This document shows, one piece after another, positions 18,707-36,617 of a stretch of 64,000 bases of DNA. Position 1 is the first letter of the stretch. Each line of letters begins with the position of its first letter. This DNA comes from Salinarchaeum laminariae. Its GTDB lineage: Archaea > Halobacteriota > Halobacteria > Halobacteriales > Salinarchaeaceae. Made by a program: the position numbers and the translations under genes. The stretch is taken from assembly GCF_023204835.1 (NCBI RefSeq), contig NZ_CP096270.1, positions 62,001 through 126,000 on the forward strand, written 5' to 3'. The notes beneath the pieces were generated by a model, which worked only from the letters and a program-made list of their open reading frames with translations, did not search any database and was not told where the DNA came from.

Positions 18707-19918
18707 TCACTCGGCGTCTGGGGACCGCTCAGGGGCGACGGCCAGCACTGATTCGAGCCCCTGATCGAAATCGACCTGAGGCTCGTACCCCAGTTGATCG
18801 CGAGCACGCTGGATCGACGCCAGACTGTGCTCGAGGTCGCCGGATCGCGGCGGCGCGTGCTCGATCGGAACGGAGCAGTTTGCCTCTTCGATCAGTCGCT
18901 CCGCCAGCTCGAGGATCGAGATTCGCTCGCCGGTGCCGACGTTGTAGGCGCGACCGGTGTGTGGCGTCGTCGCAGCGGCGAGCGTCGCGCGGACGACGTC
19001 GTCGACGTGGACGAAATCGCGAGTCTGCTCGCCGTCGCCGTGGATCAGGAGCGGGTCGCCCGCCAGGACCCGCTCTGTGAACGCCTTCACGACGCCCGCG
19101 TTCGCACCGGGACCGTAGGCGTTGAAGAATCGGAGCGCCGTGACGGGGACGTCGAACCGGGCGCCGTAGACGCGGGCGTAGTTGTCTGCGGCGAGCTTGT
19201 CCACGCCGTAGGGCGATTCGGGCCGTTTCGGATCGGTCTCGTGGACCGGAACCGACGCCGGATCGCCGTAGATCGCGGCGCTTGAGGCCAGCACCACGCG
19301 CGCCCCCTCGCGACGGGCGAGTTCGAGCACGTCGAGCGTCGCCGCGACGTTGGTCTCGTTGCTGGCCGGTGGATCCGAAAGGGAGTCCTCAACGCTGACC
19401 TGCGCAGCGAGGTGGACGATCACGTCCACGTCGGTCGCCGCCTCCGAAAGGAGCGACCGGTCGCGGACGTCACCCTCGATCGCCGTCACGTCGTCGGGTA
19501 GCTGCGAACGGCTTCCGGTATCGAACGTGTCGAGTACGCGAACGTCGTTGCAGGCCGCGAGCGCGCGGACGAGGTGGCTGCCGATGAACCCGCCGCCGCC
19601 CGTGACGAGCACCGTTCCGAGTGCAGGCACCTCGATGCTCGCGCTGGCAGGCCGTTCGCCTAACGGTGAATCGACAAGAGCCCTGGCGACCGCGCCGTCG
19701 ACGGTGGCACCGGGCTCGGCGGTAGAGTGGGGGTCCGTCATCTTCGGTTCCGCGTCGGCCTGCGTTTCGGCGTCCTGGGCCGCGTCGGCCTGCGTTTCGG
19801 CGTCCTGGGCCGCGTCGGCCTGCGTTTCGGCGTCCTGAGCCGCGTCGGCCAACTCGGTGAAGAGCGTCGCCGACTCTCGCTGGTCACTATCGCCCTTGTG
19901 GATCCTGTCGTCTGTCAT
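18707..19918 (-). CDS. NAD-dependent epimerase/dehydratase (extended SDR) with repetitive N-terminal extension
   Basis: 403 residues. Residues about 101-403 form an extended short-chain dehydrogenase: GGGGFIG at 107-113, catalytic YGVDK, and a typical sugar-nucleotide pocket (NAYGPG, TRDFVHVDDV). It probably epimerises or dehydrates a nucleotide sugar such as UDP-Glc or UDP-GlcNAc derivatives. Unusually, residues 26-55 are three exact AAQDAETQAD repeats in a 100-residue acidic disordered extension. An internal ATG (19741, residue 60) could be a shorter start, but the promoter box at 19946-19954 supports 19918. It is downstream of the deacetylase gene in the same direction. Confidence 0.88.
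   Translation of the reverse strand: MTDDRIHKGDSDQRESATLFTELADAAQDAETQADAAQDAETQADAAQDAETQADAEPKMTDPHSTAEPGATVDGAVARALVDSPLGERPASASIEVPALGTVLVTGGGGFIGSHLVRALAACNDVRVLDTFDTGSRSQLPDDVTAIEGDVRDRSLLSEAATDVDVIVHLAAQVSVEDSLSDPPASNETNVAATLDVLELARREGARVVLASSAAIYGDPASVPVHETDPKRPESPYGVDKLAADNYARVYGARFDVPVTALRFFNAYGPGANAGVVKAFTERVLAGDPLLIHGDGEQTRDFVHVDDVVRATLAAATTPHTGRAYNVGTGERISILELAERLIEEANCSVPIEHAPPRSGDLEHSLASIQRARDQLGYEPQVDFDQGLESVLAVAPERSPDAE
19751..19850 (-). repeat. Exact 30-bp in-frame tandem repeat, three copies plus 10 bases
   Basis: Units at 19751-19780, 19781-19810 and 19811-19840 (one base change in the last) plus a partial copy to 19850. They encode the decapeptide AAQDAETQAD inside the epimerase N-terminus. 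Near identity at DNA level implies recent expansion. Confidence 0.85.
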
Positions 19919-19945
19919 CTGACCGGAGTCGGCCGGGCTACGCGC

Positions 19946-19954
19946 ATTGTAATA
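19946..19954 (-). promoter_or_regulatory. TATTACAAT promoter box of the epimerase
   Basis: 28-36 bases before ATG 19918, correct leaderless spacing, in the 43-base gap after the deacetylase gene. The epimerase can thus be transcribed on its own. Confidence 0.45.
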
Positions 19955-19961
19955 GAGCGGT

Positions 19962-20840
19962 TTACCCACCGAAGGGGCCGACGTACCGCTCGATGCGGTC
20001 GTGGCACTGCTCGCGGTGATGCTCGAGGATCGTCGCCAACGATCGGTCCGCCGATCCCCAGAGCCCAGGATGCACGAGCAGCTGCATCGCATCCGGAACG
20101 CCCTCGGTAAAGGGTCGCTCCGATCGCCACTTGCCGCCCGAATCCGAGACGTACGCGACGTCGGTGAAGTAGGCCGGCTCGTAGGTGTTCTCGAAGGCGT
20201 CGAAGGTCGCCCCCAGCGCCCACTCGGGGGGCTGGTGGATCGACGTCGCGACGACCGTCGAGTCGACGGCCACCGGCCCTGGCTGCTCCCGGGCGACGAA
20301 GGAGAGTGCGTGCTCCAGCGCCGCGCGATCCTCGAGAACGCGGGCTTCGAGATCCTCCACCACGGGCTCTGCCTCCCAGTAGTAGTGGGGATCGAAGTGG
20401 AGGCCGACGTCGTGGCCCGCCGAGAGGATCGTGTGCAGATGCCGCCGGCTGTCGGGTGCAAGGAGATCGTACAGCGGATTCGTCACCAGCACGCAGTACG
20501 TCGACGTGACGCCAAGCTCCGCCTCGGCGCGGGCCATCGCGGCCGCCCGCGCGAGCGAGATGTCGACGTCGTGTCTGAGTGCGATCTCGCCGTCCGCGAT
20601 CGCGCCCTCGAAGCCCACGAACTCGTACCCGCGCGCGAGGAGGCCCTCCAGCAATCCGGCGTAGACGTCGAGTTCGTAGGCGATCCCCTCGGTCGGATCC
20701 TCGGAGGCTTCGCCACACCAGAGATCGGGGACCGACTCGGCACCTCCGGACCGTTCGACCCGCTCGGAGAGCTCGACGCCCCCGTCGCTCCGGGCATCTG
20801 CGCCGTCCCCCGGATCGCCACCATCCGAATGTTCACGCAT
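19962..20840 (-). CDS. Polysaccharide deacetylase-like protein (NodB fold)
   Basis: 292 residues. After an acidic N-terminus (1-50), a NodB-type barrel shows IALRHDVDIS (metal Asp), HDVGLHFDPHYYW (metal His pair) and LLVHPGLWGSAD (catalytic His). These are the metal- and base-binding motifs of carbohydrate esterase family 4. Such enzymes remove N- or O-acetyl groups from glycans. Here the barrel is short and the His spacing atypical, so it may act on a lipid-linked or small sugar. It overlaps the formyltransferase gene by 8 bases, an obvious operon. The disordered N-terminus is typical of the neighbours. Confidence 0.78.
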   Translation of the reverse strand: MREHSDGGDPGDGADARSDGGVELSERVERSGGAESVPDLWCGEASEDPTEGIAYELDVYAGLLEGLLARGYEFVGFEGAIADGEIALRHDVDISLARAAAMARAEAELGVTSTYCVLVTNPLYDLLAPDSRRHLHTILSAGHDVGLHFDPHYYWEAEPVVEDLEARVLEDRAALEHALSFVAREQPGPVAVDSTVVATSIHQPPEWALGATFDAFENTYEPAYFTDVAYVSDSGGKWRSERPFTEGVPDAMQLLVHPGLWGSADRSLATILEHHREQCHDRIERYVGPFGG

Positions 20841-21864
20841 CGGGCGCCCCCGATCCCGTCAGGTGCTGGCGATGCTCGTATCGGTCCACGCGGTCGTGCT
20901 CGCCGGGAGACTCGAACCGGCGGCCCGGTACCGGCTCCCAGTCGTCGGCCGCCCACTCGGTGACGAGGAGCGTACCATCCGGCGTTGCGACGACGAAGTC
21001 ACCGAGCTCGAAGGACTCGACGATCACGCCAGGCTCGACGTCGACTGCGAGATCGTCGGAGAAGGGCATCGCTTCCTGTATCTCGACGCGGGCGTCGCCC
21101 TCGAAGGTGTACGCCCCGGGATAGGGATCGGTGACGGCCCGAATCTGGTTGTAGACGTCCCGCGTGACGTTCCCCCAGTGGATCTCGCCGTCCTCGGGGT
21201 TCCGTTTGGGGTAGTAGGTGACCTCGCCGCGTTGCTCCCCGTACTCGATCTCGTCCCGGAGCACGGGCCCCAGCGAGTCGAACAGCATCGCCTCGATCGC
21301 CATCGTCACCTTGTGATAGAGCGTCTCGATCGTGTCGTAGGTCGTCAGATCGAACTTCCGAGTGGTGACGACCTCGCCGGAGTCAGCGCCAGGATCGAGC
21401 TGGATGATCGAGAGCAAGAATCGGTCCAGATCCTCGACGAGCGACCAGTTCAGCGGTGATCGACCGCGCCCGCGCGGGAGGCCGAAGGCGCTCCCGTGGT
21501 TGCCCAGCGCACCCTGCTCGAACGTGTCCAGGATCTCGCCGGGCAGGAGGCGCTGCCAGCCGTTGACGATCAGGAGATCGGCGTCGATCGTCTGAAAGTG
21601 ATCGAGATCGGCGGGGTCCTCCATCCCGTACTCCTGTGGGTAGTAGATCGGGAGATCGTGCTCCTCGGCGATCTCGGCGAAGGATCGGTATTTGCAGACG
21701 GAGCCACGCTCGGCCATCTCCGGAGTGATCGAGACGATCTCGCTCACGGGCGCGCCGTGGTCGAGGAGTGACTCGAGGACCTCGTGACCCGGTCGAGTAC
21801 AGCTCGCGTAGACGATCTCGGCGTCGTCGGGGACGTCGAGCGTGCGGTCGCCAGGAACGTACAT
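20833..21864 (-). CDS. Formyltransferase-family protein (sugar N-formyltransferase?)
   Basis: 343 residues from ATG 21864 (MYVPGDRTLDVPDDAEIVYA). A formyltransferase domain has GNHGSAFGLPRGRGRSPLNW, containing the catalytic Asn and His, and LDPGADSGEVV with the catalytic Asp. The C-terminal part contains a beta-barrel segment like that of methionyl-tRNA formyltransferases. In a sugar cluster the usual role is N-formylation of an amino sugar with formyl-tetrahydrofolate; archaea do not formylate initiator tRNA. The substrate is not deducible. The ORF can be extended upstream to 21969 but not with conserved sequence. GTAACAAAG at 21892-21900 supports 21864. Confidence 0.75.
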   Translation of the reverse strand: MYVPGDRTLDVPDDAEIVYASCTRPGHEVLESLLDHGAPVSEIVSITPEMAERGSVCKYRSFAEIAEEHDLPIYYPQEYGMEDPADLDHFQTIDADLLIVNGWQRLLPGEILDTFEQGALGNHGSAFGLPRGRGRSPLNWSLVEDLDRFLLSIIQLDPGADSGEVVTTRKFDLTTYDTIETLYHKVTMAIEAMLFDSLGPVLRDEIEYGEQRGEVTYYPKRNPEDGEIHWGNVTRDVYNQIRAVTDPYPGAYTFEGDARVEIQEAMPFSDDLAVDVEPGVIVESFELGDFVVATPDGTLLVTEWAADDWEPVPGRRFESPGEHDRVDRYEHRQHLTGSGAPDA

Positions 21865-21891
21865 CCTGCCGGGCACTGTCCGTCGACCGGG

Positions 21892-21900
21892 CTTTGTTAC
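21892..21900 (-). promoter_or_regulatory. GTAACAAAG promoter box of the formyltransferase operon
   Basis: 28-36 bases before ATG 21864, followed by CCCGG on the minus strand. Confidence 0.45.
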
Positions 21901-21955
21901 GCCCCGCGTAGCCGGCCGTAGATGGGTGCTACCGGGACAGTGGGATCGCGACTGC

Positions 21956-23134
21956 TCACCTGGAGCCACGAAGCTTCGTCGAGATCCCGGCGAGAAACGG
22001 CGCGGGGTCGTCGAATCGAAGATAATCGAAGCGGGGCTCGGCGAGACAGGAGGCGGCGATCGTGAGCGCGGTGCCTGCCATCGACGGCCGCTCGACGTGC
22101 GGCGAGTCCTCGCTCCTGATGCTCAGGAGGTGGCCAAGCTCACCGTGGAGCAGGTGGCTCCCGACGCCAGTCTCGTACGTGGGGTCGATCTCCTCGCCGC
22201 GACCAGTCGCCTGGAGCCAGTAGTAGGCGGGAAAGTCGGCACCGGCCCGGACCGTCGACGGCAGGGACTGCCAGAACCGCGGGTTGATCTCGGTGAGGAC
22301 GTACTCGCCGGTTCGGGCGTCGCGCATGTACTCGATGCAGGCGAGGCCGTGCCAGTCGAGTTCGTCGAGGAGGTCGCGAGCGACGGACTCGAGTTCGGTG
22401 TCGTAGATCGAACGCCGATAGACGCCACCGCCACCGGTGTAGGAATCCCCGCGGATCTGGCGGTGCTGAAACGTTGCGACCGGAGTGCCGTGGTCGTAGA
22501 GCGCGGCGACCATGAACTCGCCGTCGGTCGGGACGAACTCCTGGGCGATCGGCGTGTGATCGAAGGCGTCGACGAGCTCGTCGACGTCCGGCTCGGCACC
22601 GGGCGGAACGTGTTCGATCGATTTGACCACGTCGAGGTCCTCGGGAGCGCGCTCGGGAAGATACGGCTCGGCGAGGACGTTGTACCGCGACTTGACGACG
22701 TGGCGACCGTCCCAGTCCTCGACCGCGTCCAGCGACCGCGTCTCCGGGACAGGCACACCGGCGGCCTCGGCTGCGGCCGCGAGTGCGAGCCGGTCGTGGA
22801 CACGCTCGATGTGATCGAACGGCGGGACCACGAGCGAGACGCGGTCGGCGAACGCCTCCTCGTATCGCGACAGGACGTAGCCGTCCTCGGCGCGAATCGG
22901 GTAGATCGTCTCGACGTCGGGGCGATCCGCGAGCGCGAGCAGCGCGTCCCGGTATGCGAGCAGATCCTCACGAGGGTCCGGTAACGTCGCAGTTCTGTCG
23001 ACGAACCTCGACTTCGTTGCGGGAACCCCGCCCTTTTCGGAGGCGACGATCGGCGAGACGCCCCCAGCAGCGAGCGAACGGACACAGGTGTAGGTCGCAG
23101 CCTCTCGGCCGGTCGGCAACAGCGCTGCAGTCAC
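21956..23134 (-). CDS. ATP-grasp domain ligase-like protein
   Basis: 392 residues from GTG 23134. The N-terminal Rossmann-like domain starts with ALLPTGREAATYTCVRSL. The ATP-grasp core then shows HVVKSRYNVLAEPY (nucleotide-binding Lys), AQEFVPTDGEFMVAALYD, and the metal-binding strand VLTEINPRFWQSL with Glu and Asn. Families of this type join a carboxylate to an amine or phosphate (carbamoyl-phosphate synthase, D-Ala-D-Ala ligase style). In a glycan cluster it may acylate amino sugars with an amino acid, but that is inference. An in-frame ATG at 23224 exists; 23134 is preferred because the TATA-like TATACTATTCC (23174-23184) would lie upstream of it. It is followed by the formyltransferase operon. 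Confidence 0.78.
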   Translation of the reverse strand: MTAALLPTGREAATYTCVRSLAAGGVSPIVASEKGGVPATKSRFVDRTATLPDPREDLLAYRDALLALADRPDVETIYPIRAEDGYVLSRYEEAFADRVSLVVPPFDHIERVHDRLALAAAAEAAGVPVPETRSLDAVEDWDGRHVVKSRYNVLAEPYLPERAPEDLDVVKSIEHVPPGAEPDVDELVDAFDHTPIAQEFVPTDGEFMVAALYDHGTPVATFQHRQIRGDSYTGGGGVYRRSIYDTELESVARDLLDELDWHGLACIEYMRDARTGEYVLTEINPRFWQSLPSTVRAGADFPAYYWLQATGRGEEIDPTYETGVGSHLLHGELGHLLSIRSEDSPHVERPSMAGTALTIAASCLAEPRFDYLRFDDPAPFLAGISTKLRGSR

Positions 23135-23275
23135 CGAGTAGCACTCCCCATGATCGGCACTACCCAGTGTACAGGGAATAGTATACGCCGCTGATCGAGC
23201 GGATTCTGTGGGTACGCAACGCATACGGTCGACCGAAGAAACCGCCGCCTGCGTGCGGTTTGACGCGAACGCGGC

Positions 23276-24494: not shown

Positions 24495-24692
24495 ATGACG
24501 AGGCCGATTCAGCGAGCGACGGACCCGACAGCATCGATCGAGGCCGACGCGGCGTCGGCCCGCGAGGGAGCGGCGTCGAGCGACGGACCGACGTCGGGCG
24601 GAGGAACGGTGTTGGGCGGTGAAACGACGGCGTCGAACGACGACGGACCACTGACGATCGACGAACGCACAGTTGGAGGGCGATTCGCGTGA
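24495..24692 (+). CDS. Small acidic low-complexity ORF, first in the operon
   Basis: 65 residues, rich in Ala, Asp, Ser, Thr and Gly, no predicted fold. Its stop overlaps the GTG start of the acyltransferase (GTGA), the same coupling used by the next two junctions. A TATAACAAA box precedes it. It may be a translated leader, or an N-terminal tail in another frame. Alternatively it is not translated; I see no homologous motif. Confidence 0.4.
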
Positions 24693-25273
24693 CCGACGCC
24701 GCCCAGATCGACGGCGACGTCGACGTCGCACAGACCGCCAGCCTCGCGCCGGACGGCGCCGAGGGCGAGCCACCGGTCATCGGTGCTGGCGCGACGATCC
24801 GCGGCGGGACCGTGATCTACCCGGACGTCGTCGTCGGCGAGAACTTCTCGACAGGTCACCACGCGATCGTGCGCGAGGAGACCCGGATCGGAGACGGCGT
24901 GCTCGTCGGGACGACAGCCGTGATCGACGGCCACGCGCAGATCGGCGACGGCACCAGCCTCCAGACCAACGCCTACGTCCCAACCCAGTCGAAACTCGGC
25001 GATCGAGTGTTTCTCGGACCGGGCGCCACGCTCACCAACGATGCAACGCCCGTCCGAAACGAACAGGAGACGCTCGATGGGCCACATCTCCACGACGACG
25101 TGACGATCGGTGCGAACGCGACGATCCTGCCCGGCGTCGAGGTCGGTGAGGGTGCGTTCGTCGCCGCAGGCGCCGTCGTCACGAAGGACGTTCCGCCACG
25201 GACGCTGGCGATCGGCACGCCCGCCGAGCACCGACCGCTTCCCGACGAGCTCGAAGGAGGGAACCACCTGTGA
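24689..25273 (+). CDS. LbH-fold N-acyltransferase (WbpD/WlbB-like)
   Basis: 194 residues from GTG 24689. A left-handed beta-helix of hexapeptide repeats fills residues about 28-175 ([40 protein letters not shown]). The block [15 protein letters not shown] and [19 protein letters not shown], then [10 protein letters not shown], matches the WbpD/WlbB acetyltransferase group that acetylates the 3-amino group of UDP-2-acetamido-3-amino-uronates. The operon neighbours (dehydrogenase) and the linked aminotransferase and oxidoreductase at 34.6-36.6 kb support that reading. The GTG start overlaps the preceding stop by 4 bases. Other amine-acyl acceptors are possible. Confidence 0.8.
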
Positions 25274-26691
25274 GCGACGTCTTCACCGTCGACCGGCTCT
25301 ACGGCACGCTCGCGCCGTCGGATCACCGAAGCCGGTCGTTCCAGAACGGCGAGATCCCGGTCGCAGTCTACGGGCTCGGCAAGCTCGGACTCCCGGTCGC
25401 CGCCACGCTCGCGAAGGCGTCGAGCAACGTGATCGGCGCAGACGTCGATCCCGACGTCGTCCGCGATATTCAGGCTGGCCGCTCGCACGTCGACGGCGAA
25501 CCCGGCCTCGACGGGCTCGTCGAGGAGGTGGTCGAGGACGGCTCGCTGCGCGCCGTGCAGGATCCGGCGACGGCAGCGCACGAAGCCGCAATCCACGTGA
25601 TCGTCGTCCCAACCCTGCTCGACGACGACGGCGAACCTGATCTCGCGACGCTGGTCGCGGCGACGTCCTCGATCGCTGCCGGACTGGACCCCGGCGATCT
25701 CGTGCTGCTAGAGTCGACGGTACCGCCGGGAACCACCGCCGAGATGCTCGAACCGTCCCTCGCGGCGGCGAGCGGTCTCGATCCCTCGGAGTTCGGCGTC
25801 GCGTTCTGTCCCGAGCGGATCAGCTCCGGTCGCGCGCTGAAGGACATCCGCCGAGCGTACCCCAAGCTGGTCGGCGGGACGGACGGGGCCGCGACGGAGG
25901 CTGCCGCGCTCGTCTACGAACACGTCACCGAGAACGAGGTCATCCGGCTCGACGACGCGACGACGGCGGAGGCAGTCAAGGTCTTCGCTGGCGTCTATCG
26001 CGACGTCAACATCGCGCTCGCCAACGAGTTCGCCCGGTACGCCGACGAGCTCGGCGTCGACGTCGAAACGGTGACCGAGGCCGCGAACTCGATCTCGGTC
26101 ACGAACATCCTGGAGCCGGGCATCGGCGTCGGCGGCCATTGCATCCCGGTCTACCCACAGTTCCTCACGAAGACGAACGCCGTCGACGGGCCGGTGATCC
26201 CCGCCGCACGGGCGCTCAACGACGACATGCCGGCCTACGCGGTCGATCGGCTCGCCGACGAGCTGGCTGAGAGAGACACCGACATCGGCGACGCGACGGT
26301 GCTCCTGCTCGGACTCGCCTACCGGGGCGACGTGGCGGAGACGCGAAACAGCCCGCCGATCGCTATCGCCGAGTTGCTCGCCCAGTACGGAACGCGCGTG
26401 CTCGCGGTCGATCCAGTGCTCGACGACGAGGCCTTCGAGGGACTGCCCGTCGAGAACGTGTCGCTCAGAACCGCGGCGGCCGCGGAGCCGGATGCAACGA
26501 TCCTCGGCACGGATCACGACGCGTTCCAGACGATCGACTGGACTGCCTTCGAGCCGATGGTCGTGCTCGACGGCCGCAACGCGCTCGACCTCGGGGGCAC
26601 CACCCACCGGCACTGCCGGCTCGGGGACGGCGACGTGCCAGCGGCGAATTCGCACTGGCTCGACGCGGACCCACAGCGCAGCCAGCAGTGA
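25270..26691 (+). CDS. UDP-sugar 6-dehydrogenase (WecC/WbpA-like)
   Basis: 473 residues from GTG 25270. The NAD domain has [16 protein letters not shown] (GxGxxG), followed by FCPERIS and a central helical domain. The catalytic cysteine is in [13 protein letters not shown]. The C-terminal NAD-like UDP-binding domain ends the protein. These enzymes oxidise UDP-GlcNAc or UDP-ManNAc twice at C6 to the uronate, using two NAD. It is coupled to the acyltransferase (4-base overlap) and to the GT4 gene (4-base overlap). Together with the oxidoreductase and aminotransferase this suggests a UDP-diacetamido-uronate pathway; sugar identity is inferred. Confidence 0.88.
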
Positions 26692-27713
26692 CCGCAGCCG
26701 CCGGACCCGCCGACACCGAGGAGTCCACGGACAACGCGGACACGGCGACCACGAACGATACAGACGCCGCGGACACCACGATGCGCGTGCTGAACCTCGT
26801 GACCAACGACCGGGCCCGATTCTTCGTCCAGCAGGTCGATGCGCTGGAGGCACGAGGCGTCGAGAGCACGACGATCACGGTGCCGAACGATCACGGCCCC
26901 GATTCGAACCGGTCTGTGGTCGATTACCTCCGGCTGCTCCCGACGACGATCCGGGAGTCCTTCGGCGAGTACGACCTCGTTCACGCGAACTACGGGTTGA
27001 CAGCGCCAGCAGCGCTCGCACAGCCCAACCTCCCGGTGGTCGTCTCGCTCTGGGGGTCGGATCTCCTGGGGCGCTACGGGCCGATCACGAGCCGCTGTGC
27101 CGCGCGCGCTGACGAGGTCGTCGTGATGTCCACCGAGATGGCCGACGCGTTGCCCTTCGACCCCGCTGTGATCCCCCACGGCGTCGATCTGGACCGGTTC
27201 GCGCCCCAGGAACAGCGAGCGGCCCAGAGGGCCGTCGGCTGGAACCCGGAGCATCGACACGTCCTCTTTCCCTACGACACCGCACGGGAGATCAAGGACT
27301 TCCCGCGCGCGGAGGCGATCGTCGAGGCAGCGAACGACCAGCTATCTGGCACGCTTGCGCTCCAGACGATCAGCGGCGTGCCCCACGAGGCGGTGGCGAC
27401 GTACATGAACGCGGCCGACGTCCTCATCCTGACGTCGAAGAGCGAGGGCTCGCCCAACGTCGTCAAGGAGGCGATGGCGGCGAACCTTCCGGTCGTCGCG
27501 ACGCGGGTCGGCGACGTTGCCGAGCGCCTGGAGAGCGTCGAGCCGTCGGTCGTCGCCGAAGACGATCGGCGACTGGCCCGCGGAGTCGCCGAGATCGCCG
27601 AAAGCGGCGAGCGCTCGAACGGCCGCGAGCGGGTCGCCGCCGAGTTGAGCGTCGACGCGACGGCAGATCGGCTCTACGAAGTCTACCAGTCGGTCGTGGG
27701 CCAGTCGCGCTGA
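26688..27713 (+). CDS. Glycosyltransferase family 4
   Basis: 341 residues from GTG 26688; ATG 26781 (MRVLNLVTNDRARFF) would remove a 31-residue acidic tail and is a plausible start. GT-B fold: the N-terminal Rossmann half carries LVHANYGLTAPAALA and VSLWGSDLLGRYG. The C-terminal half has SEGSPNVVKEAMAANLPVVAT, with the EX7E nucleotide-sugar binding pair. It transfers a sugar from UDP- or GDP-sugar to a lipid-linked or glycan acceptor. As the last gene of the dehydrogenase operon it may use the uronate-type sugar made there. Family certain, donor unknown. Confidence 0.85.
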   Translation: MTAAAGPADTEESTDNADTATTNDTDAADTTMRVLNLVTNDRARFFVQQVDALEARGVESTTITVPNDHGPDSNRSVVDYLRLLPTTIRESFGEYDLVHANYGLTAPAALAQPNLPVVVSLWGSDLLGRYGPITSRCAARADEVVVMSTEMADALPFDPAVIPHGVDLDRFAPQEQRAAQRAVGWNPEHRHVLFPYDTAREIKDFPRAEAIVEAANDQLSGTLALQTISGVPHEAVATYMNAADVLILTSKSEGSPNVVKEAMAANLPVVATRVGDVAERLESVEPSVVAEDDRRLARGVAEIAESGERSNGRERVAAELSVDATADRLYEVYQSVVGQSR

Positions 27714-27721
27714 GAATCCGG

Positions 27722-28417
27722 TCAGGCAAACTCTTCGGTCACCGAGGTCGAAGCGGAGGGTTCGACGTTGCGTGCGACGAGCGTCTCGACCGCGCTCCGA
27801 ACGTGGTGTGAGAGCGTCTGGCGGGTCGTCCCGAACTCCGCCGCGAGCTCGGATAGGGTGACCTCTTTCGGCGTCGCGAAATATCCCTGCTCGTAGGCGA
27901 GCGCCAGCGCCTCGGACTGCTTCTCGGTGAGTGGACACGCCCCAGAGCCCGACTGATCGTCGGCAGTGATCCGGGAGATCTCGACGGTGGCACCTCGAGC
28001 TGTGAGCGCAGACTGAAACGCCTTGAGTGCCTCCCTGGTCGGCGCGCGGATGCGAAGGTGGAACCCGCTCGCGTCCCGGTGGGTGTCGAGCACCGTCACG
28101 TCGTGGCGCCGCGAGAGCGGGTAGACCAGCGGTGCCTCCGACTCGGACAGTTCGTGCGTCCAGACCCTGTAGAGCGCTCGATCGTCGAACTCGACGAGCT
28201 GGGCCCAGGAGTCGACGGTGGCGTCGTCGGTCAGCGCGGCCTCGAACGCCCCGGTCTCACAGCCGGTCGCCCAGAGGAAAAACGCGTACTGTGTCGCGTC
28301 CCCCTCTGCCTGGACGTAGTGGACGTCTTCGAAGTCGAACGCCAGCCCCGGGACGGCCTCGAACGTCGGTCCGAAGAAGATCGGATCGGTGAGAGTGAGT
28401 TCCGCAAGGTCGCTCAT
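27722..28417 (-). CDS. Bat-type (HTH-10) transcriptional regulator
   Basis: 231 residues from ATG 28417 (MSDLAELTLTDP). The N-terminal 150 residues are a beta-rich sensing domain. The C-terminal 60 residues are the bacterioopsin-activator type helix-turn-helix: LTEKQSEALALAYEQGYFATP and LSELAAEFGTTRQTLSHHVR. Numerous in haloarchaea, these act as stress and surface regulators. It is convergent with the GT4 gene (8-base gap) and divergent from the DUF354 gene, so it may regulate the glycan genes, but its target is not visible. Confidence 0.85.
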   Translation of the reverse strand: MSDLAELTLTDPIFFGPTFEAVPGLAFDFEDVHYVQAEGDATQYAFFLWATGCETGAFEAALTDDATVDSWAQLVEFDDRALYRVWTHELSESEAPLVYPLSRRHDVTVLDTHRDASGFHLRIRAPTREALKAFQSALTARGATVEISRITADDQSGSGACPLTEKQSEALALAYEQGYFATPKEVTLSELAAEFGTTRQTLSHHVRSAVETLVARNVEPSASTSVTEEFA

Positions 28418-28549
28418 CGCGTTGGGATAAACAACCGCACAAAAAATGTTCATCGGCCAACACCTAGTCGCTGGGTAGCTGCTAGCACGACAGGTGGTCA
28501 CGGCCATCGCACTCGGTGGGGCTGGCGGGCGTAGCACCGGTATCCGCGC

Positions 28550-28558
28550 AATAACAAA
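28550..28558 (+). promoter_or_regulatory. AATAACAAA promoter box of the DUF354 gene
   Basis: Followed by CTCCGG, 36-44 bases before ATG 28594. Member of the WATAACAAW group. Confidence 0.5.
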
Positions 28559-28593
28559 CTCCGGTGGGTTCGGCCATCCTGTCGATCGATCCA

Positions 28594-29628
28594 ATGCGCG
28601 TTCACTTCGACGTCACTCATCCTGCGCACGTCCACCTGTTCAGACACGCGATCCAGTCGCTGGCCGCCGGAGAGCACGCAGTCGGCGTCACGGCCAGGGA
28701 GAAAGAGGTGACGACGCAGCTACTCGACGCGTACGGCATCGACCACGAGGTACTCTCCCGCAAGCGCGCGCCAGCGTGGACACTCGCGCCGGAGTGGGGC
28801 CTCCGGACGCTCAAGACGGTCGACTACGTTCGGCGGTTCGAGCCGGACGTGATCGTGAGCCAGCTCAACCCCGCGGCCGTCGGCGCAGCGCGGCTCACGC
28901 GGACGCCGAACCTCGTCTTCCACGACAGCGAGACCGCCGGCACGCTCGCGGACGTCCTCGCGCCGCTCTCGACCGCGGTCTACTCACCTACCGGCGTCCA
29001 GCAGGACCTCGGCGAGAACCATCACAATTACCATGGGTTTCACGAGCTCGCCTACCTCCACCCCACTCTGTTCGAGACCGACACTGACCTGCTCGCAGAG
29101 CACGGCGTCGATCCCGACGAGCCCTACTCGGTGCTCCGATTCGTCTCGATGGGCGCCTACCACGACGTCGGCGAAGCGGGCCTCTCGCCGGCGCAGAAAC
29201 GCCGGGTAGCAACGGAGCTCGCCGAGCACGGCCCAGTCTACGTGAGCAGCGAGGACGACCCGCCGGCGGATCTCCCCGGCGAGCCGGTGCCTGTCCCGCC
29301 CGAGGCCATCCACCACCTCCTCGCAGAGGCCTCGGTGTTTCTCGGCGACTCGGACACGATGGCGATCGAGGCCGCCGTGCTCGGGACGCCGTCGGTGCGC
29401 GTCGACTCCTTCGGCGACGGCGACGTGCTCGGCTGTTTCCACGAGCTGGAACGGTTCGATCTCGTCCACTCGACGACCGACGGCGACGAGGCCATCGATC
29501 GGGCGATCGAACTGGCCACCGACCCGGCCGCTCGCGACCGGTGGGACCGACAGCGCCGCGCACTCCTCGAGGAAACCGTCGACGTCTCCGAGTACATGCT
29601 CGACCAGATCGAGGGGGTGGCGACGTGA
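28594..29628 (+). CDS. DUF354 glycosyltransferase-like protein
   Basis: 344 residues from ATG 28594 (MRVHFDVTHPAHVHLFRHAI). DUF354 proteins have a GT-B/UDP-GlcNAc 2-epimerase-like fold. N-terminal HPAHVHLF and the C-terminal GDSDTMAIEAAVLGTPSVRV are the family signatures. Probably a glycosyltransferase or nucleotide-sugar enzyme of cell-surface glycan assembly. The upstream ATG at 28564 adds only ten residues and would lie too near the promoter box at 28550-28558. The stop overlaps the GTG of the next gene by 4 bases. Confidence 0.82.
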   Translation: MRVHFDVTHPAHVHLFRHAIQSLAAGEHAVGVTAREKEVTTQLLDAYGIDHEVLSRKRAPAWTLAPEWGLRTLKTVDYVRRFEPDVIVSQLNPAAVGAARLTRTPNLVFHDSETAGTLADVLAPLSTAVYSPTGVQQDLGENHHNYHGFHELAYLHPTLFETDTDLLAEHGVDPDEPYSVLRFVSMGAYHDVGEAGLSPAQKRRVATELAEHGPVYVSSEDDPPADLPGEPVPVPPEAIHHLLAEASVFLGDSDTMAIEAAVLGTPSVRVDSFGDGDVLGCFHELERFDLVHSTTDGDEAIDRAIELATDPAARDRWDRQRRALLEETVDVSEYMLDQIEGVAT

Positions 29629-30800
29629 GCAGCGACGCCTCGGAGCCGGCAGCCGACGAGCGGCTACCACCGGAGACCCCCTCCAAACCGGAGCGTCGAG
29701 CGGACGGGCGCCAGGAGCCGCCGCGACCGCTCAACGAGGCGACCTCGCGACAGGACGTGCGACGGTACGACGATCGGTCGACCGGCGACGGTCTATCCGC
29801 CAGCGACGAGACCGTAGCCAGCGATGGCACTGCAGTCAGCGATCGGGACGGAGCAACCGGCGCCCAGCAAACCGTCGACGAGTCGGAGGTCGTCGGGCGG
29901 ATCGCCGAGGGCGGGCCGCAGGTCGGTGAGGATCTCCTCCCCGACCACAGTTTCGCACTGTGTCTAACCCACGACGTCGACAGACCCTACAAGTTCGCAC
30001 AGGCCGGGTTCTACGCGCTCCGTGATCGGGATCCGACGCAGCTCCTCGATCTACTGCCCGGCAGACGGCCAAATTGGACCTTCGACCGGCTGCTCGCGAT
30101 CGAGGCCGAACTCGGCGTCCGGTCGGCCTTCTACTTCCTCGACGAGCAACGGTTGTTCGGGGACCGACCGATCCGAGACTGGTTCGACCTCGACGCCTGG
30201 CAGCTCTACGCGGATCGGTACTCCCTCGACGATCCCGAGATCGTCGAGTTGATGGAGCGTCTCGACCGCGGCGGCTGGGAGGTCGGCCTTCACGGCTCCT
30301 ACGAGTCCTACGACGACCGGCGGCGGCTTCGCGCGGAGAAACGACACCTCGAATCCGTCTTCGGGAAGCCCGTCCTGGGCGGTCGCCAGCACTACCTCAA
30401 CCGGACGCTCCCCGAGACCTGGGAGCACCACGCCGCGCTCGGACTGGGCTACGACGCGACCGTCGGCTCCTCGACCGAGATCGGCTTCGACTACGGCGAC
30501 ACGATCGGTCGCCCGTTCGACGACGAGTTCGTCGCCTTCCCGCTGACGATGATGGACGTGGCGATGCCAAATCCGGCCGAGAACCCCGACGCGGCGCGAG
30601 CAGCGTGTGACCGGATCCTCGAGCAGGCAGCGGATCGCGGAGCGATCGCGACGGTGCTCTGGCATCCCCGCGTATTCAACGACGGCGACTGGCCGGGGCA
30701 CACCGAGCTGTACCGCTATCTGCTCGAACGGGCGCTGGAGCTCGGCGCGTGGGTCGGATCGCCGGGCGATCTATACGGCGAACTCGACCATCCGGAGTGA
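29625..30800 (+). CDS. Polysaccharide deacetylase-like protein with acidic N-terminal region
   Basis: 391 residues from GTG 29625, coupled to DUF354 (GTGA overlap). Residues 1-100 are acidic, Ser/Thr-rich and probably disordered. The NodB barrel follows: FALCLTHDVDRPYKF (metal Asp), GWEVGLHGSYESYDD (metal His) and VLWHPRVFND (catalytic His). This is the best preserved of the three NodB proteins in the window. It likely removes acetyl groups from a surface glycan. The N-terminal tail may tether or localise it, but no signal peptide is visible. Confidence 0.82.
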   Translation: MSSDASEPAADERLPPETPSKPERRADGRQEPPRPLNEATSRQDVRRYDDRSTGDGLSASDETVASDGTAVSDRDGATGAQQTVDESEVVGRIAEGGPQVGEDLLPDHSFALCLTHDVDRPYKFAQAGFYALRDRDPTQLLDLLPGRRPNWTFDRLLAIEAELGVRSAFYFLDEQRLFGDRPIRDWFDLDAWQLYADRYSLDDPEIVELMERLDRGGWEVGLHGSYESYDDRRRLRAEKRHLESVFGKPVLGGRQHYLNRTLPETWEHHAALGLGYDATVGSSTEIGFDYGDTIGRPFDDEFVAFPLTMMDVAMPNPAENPDAARAACDRILEQAADRGAIATVLWHPRVFNDGDWPGHTELYRYLLERALELGAWVGSPGDLYGELDHPE

Positions 30801-30896: not shown

Positions 30897-30926
30897 CACC
30901 CGTTGCTACGTGGCTCCGCGCGTTCG

Positions 30927-31928
30927 ATGGATCTCCACCGACTCACCCTCGACGAGTGGGCCGACGCGCTTCCGACTGGTGGTACCGAGCCGTTCCACCA
31001 TCCCGCGGCGCTCGACGTCCTGGACACCCACAGCCAGGGCGAGCTCCGACTCTACGGCGGTTTCAAAGGCCAGCAGCCCGTCGCGCTCCTCCCGGCAATC
31101 GTGCAGGATCGCTCCGTCGGCACCGCAGCGCTCTCGCCACCACCCGGGCTCGGCGTTCCGCGACTCGGCCCCGTCGTGATGCCCGCGAGCCCGAAACAGC
31201 GCAAACGCGAGAAGGTCAATCGGACCTTCGCGGAGCTGGTCCTCGAGGACCTCGAGGTCGAGGGGCGGACGACGCTGTTTCGGATGACCTGCAACGCAGA
31301 CTATCTCGATCCTCGTCCCTACGTCTGGTCGGATCTCGATCTCGACACGGCGTTCACCTACCGGCTCGATACAGAAGGCAGCGATCCGGAGACGATCCGA
31401 ACGGACTTCTCGAAGAGCCTCCGCCGCGAGATCGGCGACGCGGCGGATCTCGACGTTACCGTCGGACGCGAGGGGCTCGACGGCGCCGAAGCGATCTACC
31501 AGGAGACGAGCAAGCGCTACGCCGAGCAAGACCGCCCCTTCCGGCTCACCTGGCCGTACGTCGGCGACCTCTTCGACGCACTCGGCGACCGCGCACGCGC
31601 CTACGTCGTTCGCGGTCCCGACGACGAGTTCCTTAGCGGCGTCACGGCGTTATACTCCGACGACGCGGCCTACTACTGGCAGGGCGGCGCCCGCGCGACC
31701 TACGAGGGCACCGCCGTCAACAGCCTCGTCCACTGGACGATCATCGAGGATCTGGCGACCGACGCGCCCCGCGGCGCGACGACGTACGACCTGATGGGCG
31801 CGAACACCGAGCGACTCTGCCGCTACAAGAGCAAGTTCGGCGCCGAGCTGGTTCCCTACTACGTCGTCGAATCCGGCGGTGCGGGGATGGACGTCGCGAA
31901 GAAGGCGTACAGTCTCGTCGCGCGATAA
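30927..31928 (+). CDS. FemAB-like GNAT acyltransferase
   Basis: 333 residues from ATG 30927 (MDLHRLTLDEWADAL). Two GNAT-like halves typical of FemAB/lipid II aminoacyl-transferase relatives: TEPFHHPAALDVLDTH and YYWQGGARATYEGTAVNSLV, the latter a known signature in polysaccharide-biosynthesis GNATs. These transfer acyl or aminoacyl groups onto sugars or peptide stems. An upstream ATG (30903) adds eight residues, but the ATTAACAAT box is better spaced to 30927. It is the last gene before the toxin-antitoxin pair. Confidence 0.8.
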   Translation: MDLHRLTLDEWADALPTGGTEPFHHPAALDVLDTHSQGELRLYGGFKGQQPVALLPAIVQDRSVGTAALSPPPGLGVPRLGPVVMPASPKQRKREKVNRTFAELVLEDLEVEGRTTLFRMTCNADYLDPRPYVWSDLDLDTAFTYRLDTEGSDPETIRTDFSKSLRREIGDAADLDVTVGREGLDGAEAIYQETSKRYAEQDRPFRLTWPYVGDLFDALGDRARAYVVRGPDDEFLSGVTALYSDDAAYYWQGGARATYEGTAVNSLVHWTIIEDLATDAPRGATTYDLMGANTERLCRYKSKFGAELVPYYVVESGGAGMDVAKKAYSLVAR

Positions 31929-32820: not shown

Positions 32821-34296
32821 CTACTCCGATTCCTCGGTTCTCGGGCCGGATCCGTCCGGAATCCGCTCGGTGTAGTTGTAGTTGCTGTTCATCACTGCAT
32901 CGAGGAGCATCGCGCCCAGAAGCGCGGCGACGCCTGCAATGGCGAGGACGGCCCAGCGTGCGACGCTCGACGAACCGCCACTGCCCGCCGGTTCGTCGCG
33001 CGGGTCCGCGGCAGCCGGCTCGATTTCGGGCGAGGTAGCGGCATCGTTCGCGGCTGAAGCACCCGTGTCGCTCTCGGCGAAGGTCGCCACGTCAGTGTCG
33101 ACCGACGCAGCCGCGTCGGTGTCTGCGGAGGCACTCTCGTCGTTCGTCGTCTTCTCCTGCGAGACATTCGACGAACGCCGAGCGTTTCGTGAGTCATCGG
33201 AGCGGCCCGCCGCGATCCCGGATGCGGTCACGCCGAGTACCCCGCCGACCGTCGCGATCGCGCCGCCGACGAACAGCGCCAGCCGTCCGCGGCCGCCCGA
33301 GGATCCGCGATCCGTTCGAAGCCGGCGGAGGAAGGATCGAAGGAGCATCCCCGAGACGCGGGGGATGTAGGAGCTGTACGCGATGTGACTCTCCTCGTCT
33401 GCGTAGGTCAACGGACAGGGGACGTCCGCTACGCGGCAGTTCGCGGCGCTCAGCCGGATCAGCAGATCGTTACAGTAGCCGAAGAACTCGTACATCTCGT
33501 CGATGCCGGCGTCGTCGAGCGCCGAGAGCGAGATTGCCGTGTAACCGTGCTGTGGGTCCCCGACGGACCAGTAGCCCGTCGCGATCTTCGTGAGCATCGT
33601 GAGAATGTGGTTGCCGACGAAGCGGTGCCGGGGCATCGTCTCGTGGTGCTCGTCGAGAAGAAGGCGGTTCGCCTTGGCGTACTCCGCGCGGCCGTCGACG
33701 ACCGGTTCGAGCAGGTCCGGCATCCAGTCGGGGTCCATCTGCCCGTCGCCACCCATCACGACGGTCACGTCAATCCGGTCGGCCCGAGCGCGCTGGTAGC
33801 CGGTCTTGATCGCGCCGCCGACGCCCCGGTTCTGCTCGTGACGGATCGGAACGACGCGGCGATCGAACGGCGCTGCAGCGCCGGTGCTGGCGGGCGATTC
33901 GCCGCTATTCCCCGGGGCTGTGCCGTTCGTCCGCGGGGAGTCGTCGGCCTGTACCGCATCCGCTCCCGCGGCCACCGTGGTTCTGGTGCCGCCGTCGGCG
34001 CTCATCGAGGGATCGTCCTCTGGGCGAGTCTCGCCATCGCCTGGTGTCTCGCGATCTCCTCGTGCCTCGTCATCGCCGGACGCTTCCTCAGTACCTCGCG
34101 CCTCGTGATCGCCGGGCGCCGTCCCGTCGATTCGGGCGGCGGCGGTCTGGATCTCCTCCCAGCTGCCGTCCGTGGAGCAGTCGTCGACGGGGTAGATTCG
34201 GTCGACGTAGTCGGGGATCGTCTCGATCACCGTCCCCACGAATCCAGCTTCGTTGTAGGTCGGAATCACGACGGCGACAGTGTGGTCCTCGTACAT
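32821..34296 (-). CDS. Glycosyltransferase family 2 with disordered insertion and C-terminal membrane helices
   Basis: 491 residues. The GT-A domain begins VAVVIPTYNEAGFVGTVIET, with PVDDCSTDGSW; a long acidic, Gly/Thr-rich insertion (residues about 57-145) then interrupts it. The domain resumes with RHEQNRGVGGAIKTGYQRA and VVMGGDGQMDPDWM, the donor-binding acidic motif. This is the dolichyl-phosphate-mannose/glucose synthase-like group. A C-terminal region has a helix near 345-365, a low-complexity acidic linker and a last helix near 455-475, anchoring it in the membrane. It probably charges dolichyl phosphate. CATAACAAA at 34331-34339 precedes it. Confidence 0.85.
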   Translation of the reverse strand: MYEDHTVAVVIPTYNEAGFVGTVIETIPDYVDRIYPVDDCSTDGSWEEIQTAAARIDGTAPGDHEARGTEEASGDDEARGDRETPGDGETRPEDDPSMSADGGTRTTVAAGADAVQADDSPRTNGTAPGNSGESPASTGAAAPFDRRVVPIRHEQNRGVGGAIKTGYQRARADRIDVTVVMGGDGQMDPDWMPDLLEPVVDGRAEYAKANRLLLDEHHETMPRHRFVGNHILTMLTKIATGYWSVGDPQHGYTAISLSALDDAGIDEMYEFFGYCNDLLIRLSAANCRVADVPCPLTYADEESHIAYSSYIPRVSGMLLRSFLRRLRTDRGSSGGRGRLALFVGGAIATVGGVLGVTASGIAAGRSDDSRNARRSSNVSQEKTTNDESASADTDAAASVDTDVATFAESDTGASAANDAATSPEIEPAAADPRDEPAGSGGSSSVARWAVLAIAGVAALLGAMLLDAVMNSNYNYTERIPDGSGPRTEESE

Positions 34297-34330: not shown

Positions 34331-34339
34331 TTTGTTATG
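34331..34339 (-). promoter_or_regulatory. CATAACAAA promoter box of the GT2 gene
   Basis: Followed by CCGG, 35-43 bases before ATG 34296. Member of the WATAACAAW-like group. Confidence 0.5.
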
Positions 34340-34420
34340 GTGCGAGTGCACGCTCAGCAGCGATCGGTATGGCGCTGCTACGGGGCGAGGGGAGCGCACA
34401 GCGGGCGAACGGAAGAGACA

Positions 34421-34482
34421 GGCAGGGGAGGCGAACAGAGCGGACGGGCAGGGGAGGCGAACAGAGCGGACGGGCAGGGGAC
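34421..34482 (+). repeat. 26-bp purine-rich tandem repeat
   Basis: Two full units (34421-34446, 34447-34472) and a 10-base start of a third. The unit starts GGCAGGGGAGGCGAACAGAG. It is flanked by the same CGAACGGAAGAGAC (about 34406-34419 and 34484-34497). Comparable in style to the 32-bp repeat at 13721-13852, but different in period. Confidence 0.7.
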
Positions 34483-34568
34483 TCGAACGGAAGAGACGAA
34501 CAGGGGGAGCGAAGCGGAATAGAAGAACGACCGGGCGGACGTCGGGGAATCTGGTTCTCGGTGGGTAC

Positions 34569-35525
34569 TCAGTGCTCGCGACCCGCAGCGCCAGCCACCC
34601 GCTCGGCGGTTCGGAGCACCTCCAGGCCTTGCTCACCGGTGACGACGGGGTCGTCCCCGTTCCTCGTGGCGTCGACGAACCCCTCGAGTTCGCGTTTGAG
34701 CGGTTCGCCGTTCTCGACGGTCGGGCGCTCGACGACGTTCTCGGTGCGGTAGCGGACGTCGCCGTTCGTCTCGACGTACTCCGGCAGCGAGCGGTGGTTG
34801 ATCTTGACGGACTGCTCCATGTAGTCGACGGTGACCACGCAGTCCGTGGTGGTGATCGAGAGCTCGCGGACCTTCTTCTGGGTGACGCGGCTCGCGGTGA
34901 ACGTGCCGACGACGCCGTCGCCGTAGTCGACGGTCGCGGTCACGTACTCGCCGTTCGCGCCGGCGCGTGCGTCGACGTCCCGGGCGGTCACGTCGAGAAC
35001 GGACCGAACGACGTCGAGGTCGTGGATCATCAGGTCGAAGACGACGCCGCTGGTGACGCCGCGGTCGCCGTCGAAGGGCGGGCCGAGTCGCCTCGCTTCC
35101 ACGGCGATGATCTCGCGGTCGGCGAGGACGTCCTGGAGCGCCCGCACGGCGGGGTTGAACCGCTCGACGTGGCCGACCTGGAGCGTCACGTCCGCCTCCC
35201 GCGCGGCACGGACGATCTCCTGACCGACCTCGGCGTCGTCGACGATCGGTTTCTCGACGAGGAGGTCGACGCCGGCGTCGATCGCGGCGTTCGCGAGCTC
35301 CGCGTGGTACTCCGTCGGGACGACGATCGAGACGAGGTCGACGGCGTCGAAGAGTGACTGCAGGTCGTAGGCCTCGGTCCCGTAGTTCGTCGCGACGGCA
35401 TCTGCGCGCTCGCGGTCGACGTCGTAGACGCCACCGAGGTCGACGCCCGGTAGCTCGTGGTAGACGCGGGCGTGGTGGCGCCCCATGGAACCGACGCCGA
35501 TCACGCCGGCTGTGAGTTCGCTCAT
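34569..35525 (-). CDS. Gfo/Idh/MocA-family oxidoreductase (WbpB/WlbA-like)
   Basis: 318 residues. The NAD fold starts with GVIGVGSMGRHHARVYHELP (GxGxxG). LLVEKPIVDD carries the catalytic EKP motif, and VGHVERFNPAVRA is the typical GH.xxxNP block. The family oxidises C3 of a UDP-N-acetyl-uronate to the 3-keto sugar in UDP-2,3-diamino-uronate synthesis, among other roles. The adjacent DegT aminotransferase (one base apart) fits that reaction and would aminate the 3-keto sugar. ATG 35525 is close behind the previous gene. Substrate is inferred from context. Confidence 0.87.
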   Translation of the reverse strand: MSELTAGVIGVGSMGRHHARVYHELPGVDLGGVYDVDRERADAVATNYGTEAYDLQSLFDAVDLVSIVVPTEYHAELANAAIDAGVDLLVEKPIVDDAEVGQEIVRAAREADVTLQVGHVERFNPAVRALQDVLADREIIAVEARRLGPPFDGDRGVTSGVVFDLMIHDLDVVRSVLDVTARDVDARAGANGEYVTATVDYGDGVVGTFTASRVTQKKVRELSITTTDCVVTVDYMEQSVKINHRSLPEYVETNGDVRYRTENVVERPTVENGEPLKRELEGFVDATRNGDDPVVTGEQGLEVLRTAERVAGAAGREH

Positions 35526-36617
35526 CTACGCAGCCTCCGGGTCGAACGTTGCGAGCAGCTCCGCGATCGAGTCGACCTCGGCGGCGGAGAGGCCCGGATG
35601 CACCGGGATCGACAGCACCTCCTCCGCTGCCTGCTCGGCGACCGGGAGCGTTGCCGGACGATCGTACGCTGGCTGTCGGTGGATCGGCGTCGGGTAGTAG
35701 ATCCCACTGTCGACGCCGTTGCGCTCGAGGTAGCTCCGAAGCGCCTCTCGATCGGGCGTCCGCACGGTGTACTGGTGGTAGACGTGGCGCGTCCCGGCGG
35801 GCTCGATCGGTGCGAGCACCGATGGCGTCGCTTCAAGAGCCTCTGTGTAGCGCTCGGCCGCGCGCCGACGAGCAGCAGTGTAGCGCGGGAGCTTCCTAAG
35901 CTGTGCGCCGCCGATCGCGGCGGCGAGGCTCGTCATCCGGAGGTTGTGGCCGACGGACTCGTGGACGTCGGCGTCGCTCCGGCCGTGATTCACGTAGCGC
36001 CGGGCCCGGGCCGCGATCGCGTCGTCGTCCGTGACGATCATGCCTCCTTCGCCCGTCGTCGCGTTCTTCGTCGGGTAGAAGGAAAAGCAGGCAGCGTCGC
36101 CCAGCGAGCCGACGGGCTGGCCGGCGATCTCGGCGCCGTGGGCCTGTGCGGCGTCCTCGAGGAGCGGAACGTCGTACTCCTCGGCGATCGATCCCAGCTC
36201 GTCCATCGGTGCCGGCAGCCCGTAGAGGTGAACGGCGACGATGCAGTCCACCTCGCCGTCGTAGTCCTCGATCGTCGCGCGCACGGCGTCGGGATCGAGC
36301 GTGTAGCGCGCGGGGTCGACGTCCGCGAACACCGGCGTCGCACCCACGAGCCGTGCGGCGTTCGCGGTGGCGACGAAGGACAGCGGCGTCGTCACGACGA
36401 CGTCGCCCGCGCCGATCCCGAGCGATCGCAAGGCGGTGGTGAGTGCCGCCGTGCCGTTCGCCGCGGCGACGCCGTGGGTCGCGTCGCAGTAGTCGCTGAA
36501 CGCCGTCTCGAACTCTCTGACGGCCGGCCCGTCGGCGAGCCGACCGCTCTCGACGACGTCGATCGCGCGAGAGAGTTCGCGCGCACCCAGATCGGGAGCG
36601 GCGATCGGAATGCTCAC
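35526..36617 (-). CDS. DegT/DnrJ/EryC1-family sugar aminotransferase (WbpE-like)
   Basis: 363 residues from GTG 36617 (MSIPIAAPDLGARELSRAI). PLP fold type I with the lysine in SFYPTKNATTGEGG, plus NGTAALTTALRSLGIG and EDAAQAHGAEIAG. It aminates a keto nucleotide sugar using glutamate. Paired with the Gfo/Idh gene this matches the WbpE step. An in-frame ATG lies at 36764, but the TATAACAAT box (36748-36756) would be inside such a gene, so the GTG is preferred. That implies a leader of about 105 bases. The glycan pathway call is inference; the family is secure. Confidence 0.87.
   Translation of the reverse strand: MSIPIAAPDLGARELSRAIDVVESGRLADGPAVREFETAFSDYCDATHGVAAANGTAALTTALRSLGIGAGDVVVTTPLSFVATANAARLVGATPVFADVDPARYTLDPDAVRATIEDYDGEVDCIVAVHLYGLPAPMDELGSIAEEYDVPLLEDAAQAHGAEIAGQPVGSLGDAACFSFYPTKNATTGEGGMIVTDDDAIAARARRYVNHGRSDADVHESVGHNLRMTSLAAAIGGAQLRKLPRYTAARRRAAERYTEALEATPSVLAPIEPAGTRHVYHQYTVRTPDREALRSYLERNGVDSGIYYPTPIHRQPAYDRPATLPVAEQAAEEVLSIPVHPGLSAAEVDSIAELLATFDPEAA

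Follow-up and report, generated by a model that had tools for sequence, protein, structure and literature searches.

A conserved haloarchaeal gene set in Salinarchaeum laminariae that probably encodes an archaeal form of the bacterial Wbp/Vim amino-sugar pathway

In bacteria, secreted proteins can be held at the cell surface by a sugar whose synthesis is ascribed to the Wbp/Vim pathway. For Porphyromonas gingivalis it has been proposed that VimE takes the 2-N-acetyl group off the product of the Wbp enzymes and that VimA then attaches serine or glycine, and the resulting sugar is the linker to which secreted surface proteins are joined (PMC7468200). Related routes are the Wbp/Wlb pathway to UDP-ManNAc3NAcA of Pseudomonas aeruginosa and Bordetella and the route to the GlcNAc3NAcA of the N-glycan of Methanococcus maripaludis (NF040723; PMC2952790). 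Here we describe a gene cluster in a stretch of 64,000 nucleotides (the window), part of the 3.17 Mb single-contig genome of the haloarchaeon Salinarchaeum laminariae, which on balance probably encodes a haloarchaeal Wbp/Vim-like pathway to a 2-N-aminoacyl-3-N-acetyl uronic acid. A sequence-only reading of the window had placed in it an LbH acyltransferase, a UDP-sugar 6-dehydrogenase, a Gfo/Idh oxidoreductase, a DegT aminotransferase and an SDR, all of which are confirmed by Pfam and NCBIfam models, together with glmS, glmM and glmU, which are all above their NCBIfam cut-offs; two further genes of the cluster, VimE-like and VimA-like, had been missed. The genes that the pathway would require are the following, the starts of the VimE-like gene (29625, picked from several candidates) and of the DegT gene (36617) being the most likely ones.

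6351-7964, plus strand: GlmM, precursor supply (TIGR03990, 456 bits, above the cut-off of 439)
8076-9404, plus strand: archaeal GlmU, precursor supply (TIGR03992, 507 bits, above the cut-off of 292)
15018-16841, minus strand: GlmS, precursor supply (TIGR01135, 702 bits, above the cut-off of 418)
24689-25273, plus strand: WbpD/QdtC-like N-acyltransferase of the LbH class, putatively acetylating the 3-amino group (PF00132)
25270-26691, plus strand: nucleoside diphosphate (NDP)-sugar 6-dehydrogenase (UGD), WbpA-like step (TIGR03026, 358 bits, above the cut-off of 190)
29625-30800, plus strand: VimE-like deacetylase of CE4 type, with the 2-N-acetyl group as its predicted target
30903-31928, plus strand: VimA-like GNAT/FemX-type transferase, predicted to aminoacylate the freed 2-amino group (PF13480 and FemAB)
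34569-35525, minus strand: Gfo/Idh/MocA oxidoreductase of the UDP-GlcNAc 3-dehydrogenase branch (PF01408; NF040723 below cut-off)
35526-36617, minus strand: DegT aminotransferase, predicted 3-aminotransferase (PF01041, 380 bits)

With the Wbp/Vim system of P. gingivalis and Tannerella forsythia (PMC7468200) the cluster shares the classes of 3-dehydrogenase, 3-aminotransferase, LbH acetyltransferase and VimA-type enzymes and probably those of 6-dehydrogenase and VimE-type deacetylase, and VimA adjoins VimE in both domains. In contrast to the bacterial system, the archaeal genes are clustered, the 3-dehydrogenase comes from another branch of the Gfo/Idh proteins, VimE and VimA are remote relatives, the DUF7033 domain is undetected in archaeal VimE, and WbpS and type IX secretion were not found in the archaeal cluster. 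The predicted WbpA-, WbpE- and WbpD-like steps would be common to the Wbp/Wlb pathway, whose 2-epimerase also has a counterpart, wecB/WbpI-like, in the operon of Haloferax mediterranei; unlike in that pathway, the archaeal Gfo is not WbpB/WlbA, and VimE and VimA are additional. The M. maripaludis route shares the supply by GlmS, GlmM and GlmU and the archaeal UDP-GlcNAc 3-dehydrogenase model to which the window Gfo is nearest, although the window protein remains below the cut-off of this model and VimE and VimA are not described there.

The gene set is conserved in haloarchaea. Twenty-six haloarchaeal loci were compared and, since they were picked by their Gfo match, the presence of Gfo in them is no evidence; the order of the genes is informative. 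DegT adjoins Gfo in all 22 loci with both, LbH adjoins DegT in 15 of 18, Gfo adjoins UGD in 18 of 20 and VimE adjoins VimA in 12 of 13. A co-directional LbH-DegT-Gfo-UGD block recurs in most of the loci, across several families, and often runs on to VimE-VimA, so that the combination is not due to chance; the complete LbH-DegT-Gfo-UGD-VimE-VimA order is found, for example, in Halomicrococcus gelatinilyticus, Haladaptatus litoreus and Halobacterium bonnevillei. In particular, plasmid pHME505 of H. mediterranei carries all six genes and the wecB 2-epimerase in one operon, which makes the pathway idea directly testable; its Gfo, VimE-like and VimA-like proteins are WP_238547500, WP_231513007 and WP_004060885. 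In the same organism a second, diverged VimA-like GNAT gene (L229 10791-11879, 34% identity) lies immediately before the VimA orthologue, and similar VimA-like paralogues occur in other haloarchaeal loci. The conserved operon makes a 3-amino or 3-acetamido product likely, which partly supports the diacetamido-uronate product proposed by the sequence-only reading; the VimE-like and VimA-like genes suggest that the diacetamido sugar would be an intermediate and not the end product.

The distribution of the genes is nested. Among 295 Halobacteriales genomes (thresholds of E<=1e-40 for Gfo and VimE and of E<=1e-75 for VimA), Gfo is present in 199, VimE in 155 and VimA in 133; VimE is accompanied by Gfo in 154 of its 155 genomes and VimA by VimE in 130 of 133. 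Among the matches listed, 109 genomes have both VimE and Gfo placed, and in 79 of them the two are no more than 25 kb apart; for VimA and VimE, a distance of at most 12 kb is seen in 117 of 124. This pattern bears on a simpler alternative, that of the sequence-only reading, in which the pathway ends with the diacetamido uronic acid, used unchanged as it is in the methanogen N-glycan, while the deacetylase and the GNAT protein serve another sugar of the cluster: the four Wbp-like enzymes stay together as a conserved set, 45 of the 199 Gfo-bearing genomes are without a VimE match, and GlcNAc3NAcA is found in Methanococcus N-glycans (PMC2952790), but VimE occurs without Gfo in only 1 of 155 genomes and often lies just downstream of UGD, which would be hard to explain if the two were unrelated, and we regard this alternative as possible but unlikely.

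Haloferax volcanii, one of the control genomes, has no VimE match at E<=1e-10, an absence that may explain how work on this model species passed these genes by; a limited literature search turned up no paper on Vim genes in haloarchaea. On one plasmid from Halococcus there is a VimA relative (49.6% identity) with no VimE adjoining, and the Halococcus search, which covered plasmids only, gave no VimE match and hence no complete pair. Methanosarcina plasmids have a VimE relative near which no GNAT or Wbp gene is annotated; on one of them (L231 4335-5357, 29% identity) it belongs to a glycan cluster that also has a flippase gene.

Profile comparisons indicate that the VimE-like and VimA-like proteins are homologous to bacterial VimE and VimA. 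The only NCBIfam match of the open reading frame ending at 30800 is NF053580, VimE (UDP-2,3-diacetamido-2,3-dideoxy-glucuronate deacetylase), with E=7.8e-15. The hhalign comparison of the window-type VimE with bona fide bacterial VimE gives 99.6% (E=1.2e-24) and that of the VimA-like protein with bacterial VimA 97% (E=9.9e-11), whereas the crossed VimE/VimA pairs used as controls stay below 1%; the motifs THDVD, GLHxSY, RxHxL and LWH are common to archaeal and bacterial VimE. The first matches of the VimE-like structure model (mean predicted local distance difference test score, pLDDT, of 71) are CE4 polysaccharide deacetylases and ArnD. Of 120 genomes from a single Bacteroidota family, 100 have bona fide VimE, above the cut-off, and in 11 loci of this family with a curated VimE, picked by VimE alone, the window VimA matched the gene adjoining VimE in all 11 and nothing else there. 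Bacterial VimA and the window protein match the same two Pfam-level families (Acetyltransf_6, PF13480, and FemAB); a VimA-type transferase next to VimE, as in the Vim extension of the Wbp set, is found in the window, if with remote homology. The profile of haloarchaeal VimA relatives matches FemX 6snr (E=7e-4), and each of the ten best PDB matches of the predicted VimA-like fold is FemX or another enzyme that depends on aminoacyl-tRNA, followed by two MprF; profile and predicted fold thus suggest a likeness to the FemX/FemAB aminoacyl-tRNA-dependent transferases, although the VimA-like protein would act on an amino sugar and not on a peptidoglycan peptide.

The nearness of the predicted VimE fold also to ArnD, an enzyme that acts on a lipid-linked sugar, would fit a reading in which the deacetylase and the FemAB-like protein modify a finished or lipid-linked glycan instead of a nucleotide sugar. 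This has been proposed for bacterial PEP-CTERM/exosortase loci, in whose polysaccharide clusters the pair of FemAB and deacetylase is typical (PMC7468200). However, the PEP-CTERM FemAB and deacetylase models are unmatched at E<=1e-3, whereas the VimE model is matched, and archaeosortase A (ArtA) lies about 70 kb off in this genome and is not adjacent in others; action on the glycan itself is accordingly judged improbable. We therefore do not link the cluster to ArtA, nor to AglB, which is about 185 kb away; neither gene is adjacent to the cluster in nine other genomes.

Within the Wbp/Vim-like pathway, the 3-dehydrogenase departs from the bacterial set. The best NCBIfam model of the window Gfo is the archaeal UDP-GlcNAc 3-dehydrogenase NF040723, at about 235-240 bits, the curated cut-off of 450 not being reached. 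Its score against PDB 7bvj, which we take to be GnnA of Acidithiobacillus, is 124 bits, with the EKP and DLMIHDLD motifs common to both, and no WlbA or WbpB structure (the entries 3oa2 and 3o9z carry the WbpB label, and 3q2i is presumably WlbA) is found among its best 60 PDB matches; the Gfo genes that adjoin DegT in Bacteroidota (wbpB) match WlbA/WbpB structures instead. A tree groups the Gfo proteins of haloarchaea in a single clade (support 1.0) that lies among 7bvj-like and other bacterial Gfo, including a group with LbH neighbours, and away from WlbA; since the WlbA group served as its root, the tree shows distance, not an independent rooting. The window Gfo is not, on these comparisons, the WbpB/WlbA-type 3-dehydrogenase of the Wbp pathway. 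As a consequence, the Wbp-type set of the sequence-only reading holds for four enzyme classes that form a conserved haloarchaeal operon and fails for the relationship of Gfo to WbpB, and the order WbpA, B, E and D is not simply transferable. Because the protein belongs to the UDP-GlcNAc 3-dehydrogenase branch, away from WlbA, C3 oxidation would more likely precede C6 oxidation, with UDP-GlcNAc rather than the uronate as substrate.

The bacterial loci found with the Gfo query are mostly without DegT and Vim genes and therefore provide no Wbp/Vim reference set, for which the VimE model was used instead. Seven bacterial Gfo relatives (L065, L066, L073, L076, L082, L103 and L110) have an LbH gene with a weak match, possibly lpxA, 1-2 kb upstream of them, and these seven loci gave no aminotransferase match.

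The near relatives of known structure of the DegT protein include 7b0d and the 3-aminotransferases QdtB and WbpE, with QdtB slightly above WbpE, and the protein has FYPTKN where WbpE has FFPSK, which contains the lysine that binds pyridoxal phosphate (PLP); this motif and the adjacency to Gfo mark it as a WbpE-like PLP aminotransferase coupled to a 3-dehydrogenase, on a predicted substrate. The best PDB match of the LbH protein is QdtC (128 bits), an enzyme that acylates a 3-amino sugar, with the WlbB-type 3mqg at 64 bits; the cluster thus contains a WbpD-like acetyltransferase, though one closer to QdtC than to WlbB. The dehydrogenase, with 4r16 as best PDB match, scores 270 bits with the archaeal UDP-ManNAc dehydrogenase model against 171 with AglM (UDP-glucose), and is nearest to 2-acetamido-sugar (UDP-ManNAc) dehydrogenases and not to UDP-glucose dehydrogenase, all specific models being below their cut-offs; the GGHCIP motif is present in 19 of 20 dehydrogenase orthologues and in the window protein. 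The Qdt-like scores of the DegT and LbH proteins and the neighbouring SDR and formyltransferase-like genes would suit a different amino sugar, namely a Qdt-type 3-acetamido sugar or an Arn-type 4-amino/4-formamido pentose made via these two neighbours, but this is very improbable, as the Qdt route requires a dTDP-sugar ketoisomerase and none was found in the cluster, DegT adjoins the Gfo 3-dehydrogenase in every locus with both, and an Arn-like route (UGD, SDR, DegT and formyltransferase) was dropped because the SDR is unlike UDP-4-keto-pentose enzymes (only 53 bits with that model) and SDR and formyltransferase are seldom near the conserved block.

In the Wbp/Vim-like pathway that we infer, from its single reactions and their order to the amino acid and the receiving glycan, UDP-GlcNAc would be supplied by GlmS, GlmM and GlmU and oxidized at C3 by the Gfo enzyme, the DegT enzyme would aminate the C3-oxidized sugar, and the LbH enzyme would acetylate the new 3-amino group. 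The dehydrogenase would oxidize C6, earlier or later than the C3 steps, to give a UDP-2,3-diacetamido uronic acid, from which the VimE-like enzyme would strip the original 2-N-acetyl group, either on the nucleotide sugar or on a polymer. The FemX/VimA-like enzyme would then load an amino acid, probably from aminoacyl-tRNA, onto the freed amine, and linked glycosyltransferases would put the product into a surface glycan.

Several observations weigh against this pathway. The VimE-like protein reaches 54 bits, far under the curated NF053580 cut-off of 440, the homology of both VimE and VimA is remote (about 21-28% identity), and confidence in the structure model of the VimA-like protein is low (mean pLDDT 58.7). 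Sequence leaves the specificity of the DegT protein undecided, since perosamine synthase (214.8 bits) follows WbpE (223.8 bits) at a distance of 9 bits and the top PDB match, 7b0d, has the deposited name 'scyllo-inositol transaminase'; its assignment to the 3-position rests on the coupling to Gfo. Membership in inositol or perosamine-type families, which would have spoken against the diacetamido-uronate proposal, is thus weakly excluded for DegT, while no such family is the best match of the Gfo protein. The genes of the window are split over both strands in two blocks and not in a single operon, 25 genomes with VimE give no VimA match that reaches the threshold, and the Fisher values for the co-occurrences (5e-41 and 3e-53) ignore relatedness and do not represent independent events. 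Furthermore, the VimE step is only proposed in Porphyromonas itself (PMC7468200).

The other genes of the region are as follows.

26688-27713, plus strand: GT4 glycosyltransferase (PF13692/PF00534), with an overlap of 4 bases with the dehydrogenase gene
28564-29628, plus strand: DUF354 protein (PF04007), found again in the cluster of other haloarchaea
32821-34296, minus strand: GT2 glycosyltransferase, possible partner (PF00535; weak AglJ similarity, TIGR04182 at 49 bits against a cut-off of 325)
18707-19741, minus strand: SDR nucleotide-sugar epimerase/dehydratase of uncertain pathway membership (PF01370)
19962-20840, minus strand: short protein with an RHDVD motif in its translation, deacetylase-like by eye only
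20833-21969, minus strand: sugar N-formyltransferase-like neighbour (PF00551/PF02911; ArnA-type model at 140 bits, below cut-off)
21956-23224, minus strand: ATP-grasp neighbour (PRK12767/PRK06849 matches)

The GT4 gene is found again near VimA in several haloarchaeal loci and the GT2 gene in many of those compared, while the DUF354 protein probably has a GT-B fold. The SDR takes up only the C-terminal half of a listed open reading frame (18707-20461, minus strand), with the Epimerase domain PF01370 over residues 284-509 and a true start probably near 19741; the LegB, GalE and dehydratase models are tied on it at about 160 bits, each under its cut-off. The RHDVD-motif protein has no match among Pfam or NCBIfam models, and orthologues of the ATP-grasp protein lie near Gfo in some other haloarchaea. 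The formyltransferase-like, ATP-grasp and RHDVD-motif genes are grouped at 19962-23224 on the minus strand, and all three have orthologues in the equivalent cluster of Natronomonas gomsonensis; the formyltransferase-like protein has GNHGS near the position at which ArnA presumably has NLHGS. A Bat/HTH_10 regulator (27722-28594, minus strand), only 43% identical to its counterpart in the sister genome, interrupts the plus-strand block in antisense orientation, with the GT4 gene on one side and the DUF354 gene on the other, and secY and the S5 ribosomal gene (46074-49143, minus strand), otherwise a conserved housekeeping region, are close to the glycan cluster.

The walls of Halococcus morrhuae contain N-glycyl-glucosaminyl bridges (PMC4187196), and no description was found of the enzymes for these glycine-amino-sugar bridges. 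The proposed enzymes would be of the right kind for this chemistry, by analogy only, because the VimA relative of Halococcus is without VimE and its plasmids gave no VimE match. A bolder proposal, which we offer tentatively and consider doubtful, is that haloarchaea make aminoacyl-diamino uronic acids by a tRNA-dependent transferase acting on the nucleotide sugar, and that this sugar serves as a covalent, type IX-like linker for surface proteins or as a wall-glycan bridge, as in Halococcus. If the Wbp/Vim-like reading is true, aminoacyl-sugar synthesis would extend into archaea, to about half of the sampled Halobacteriales, with a different 3-dehydrogenase, and aminoacyl-tRNA may be used outside translation in archaea; named candidate genes are now available for the old observation of the Halococcus wall bridge (PMC4187196).

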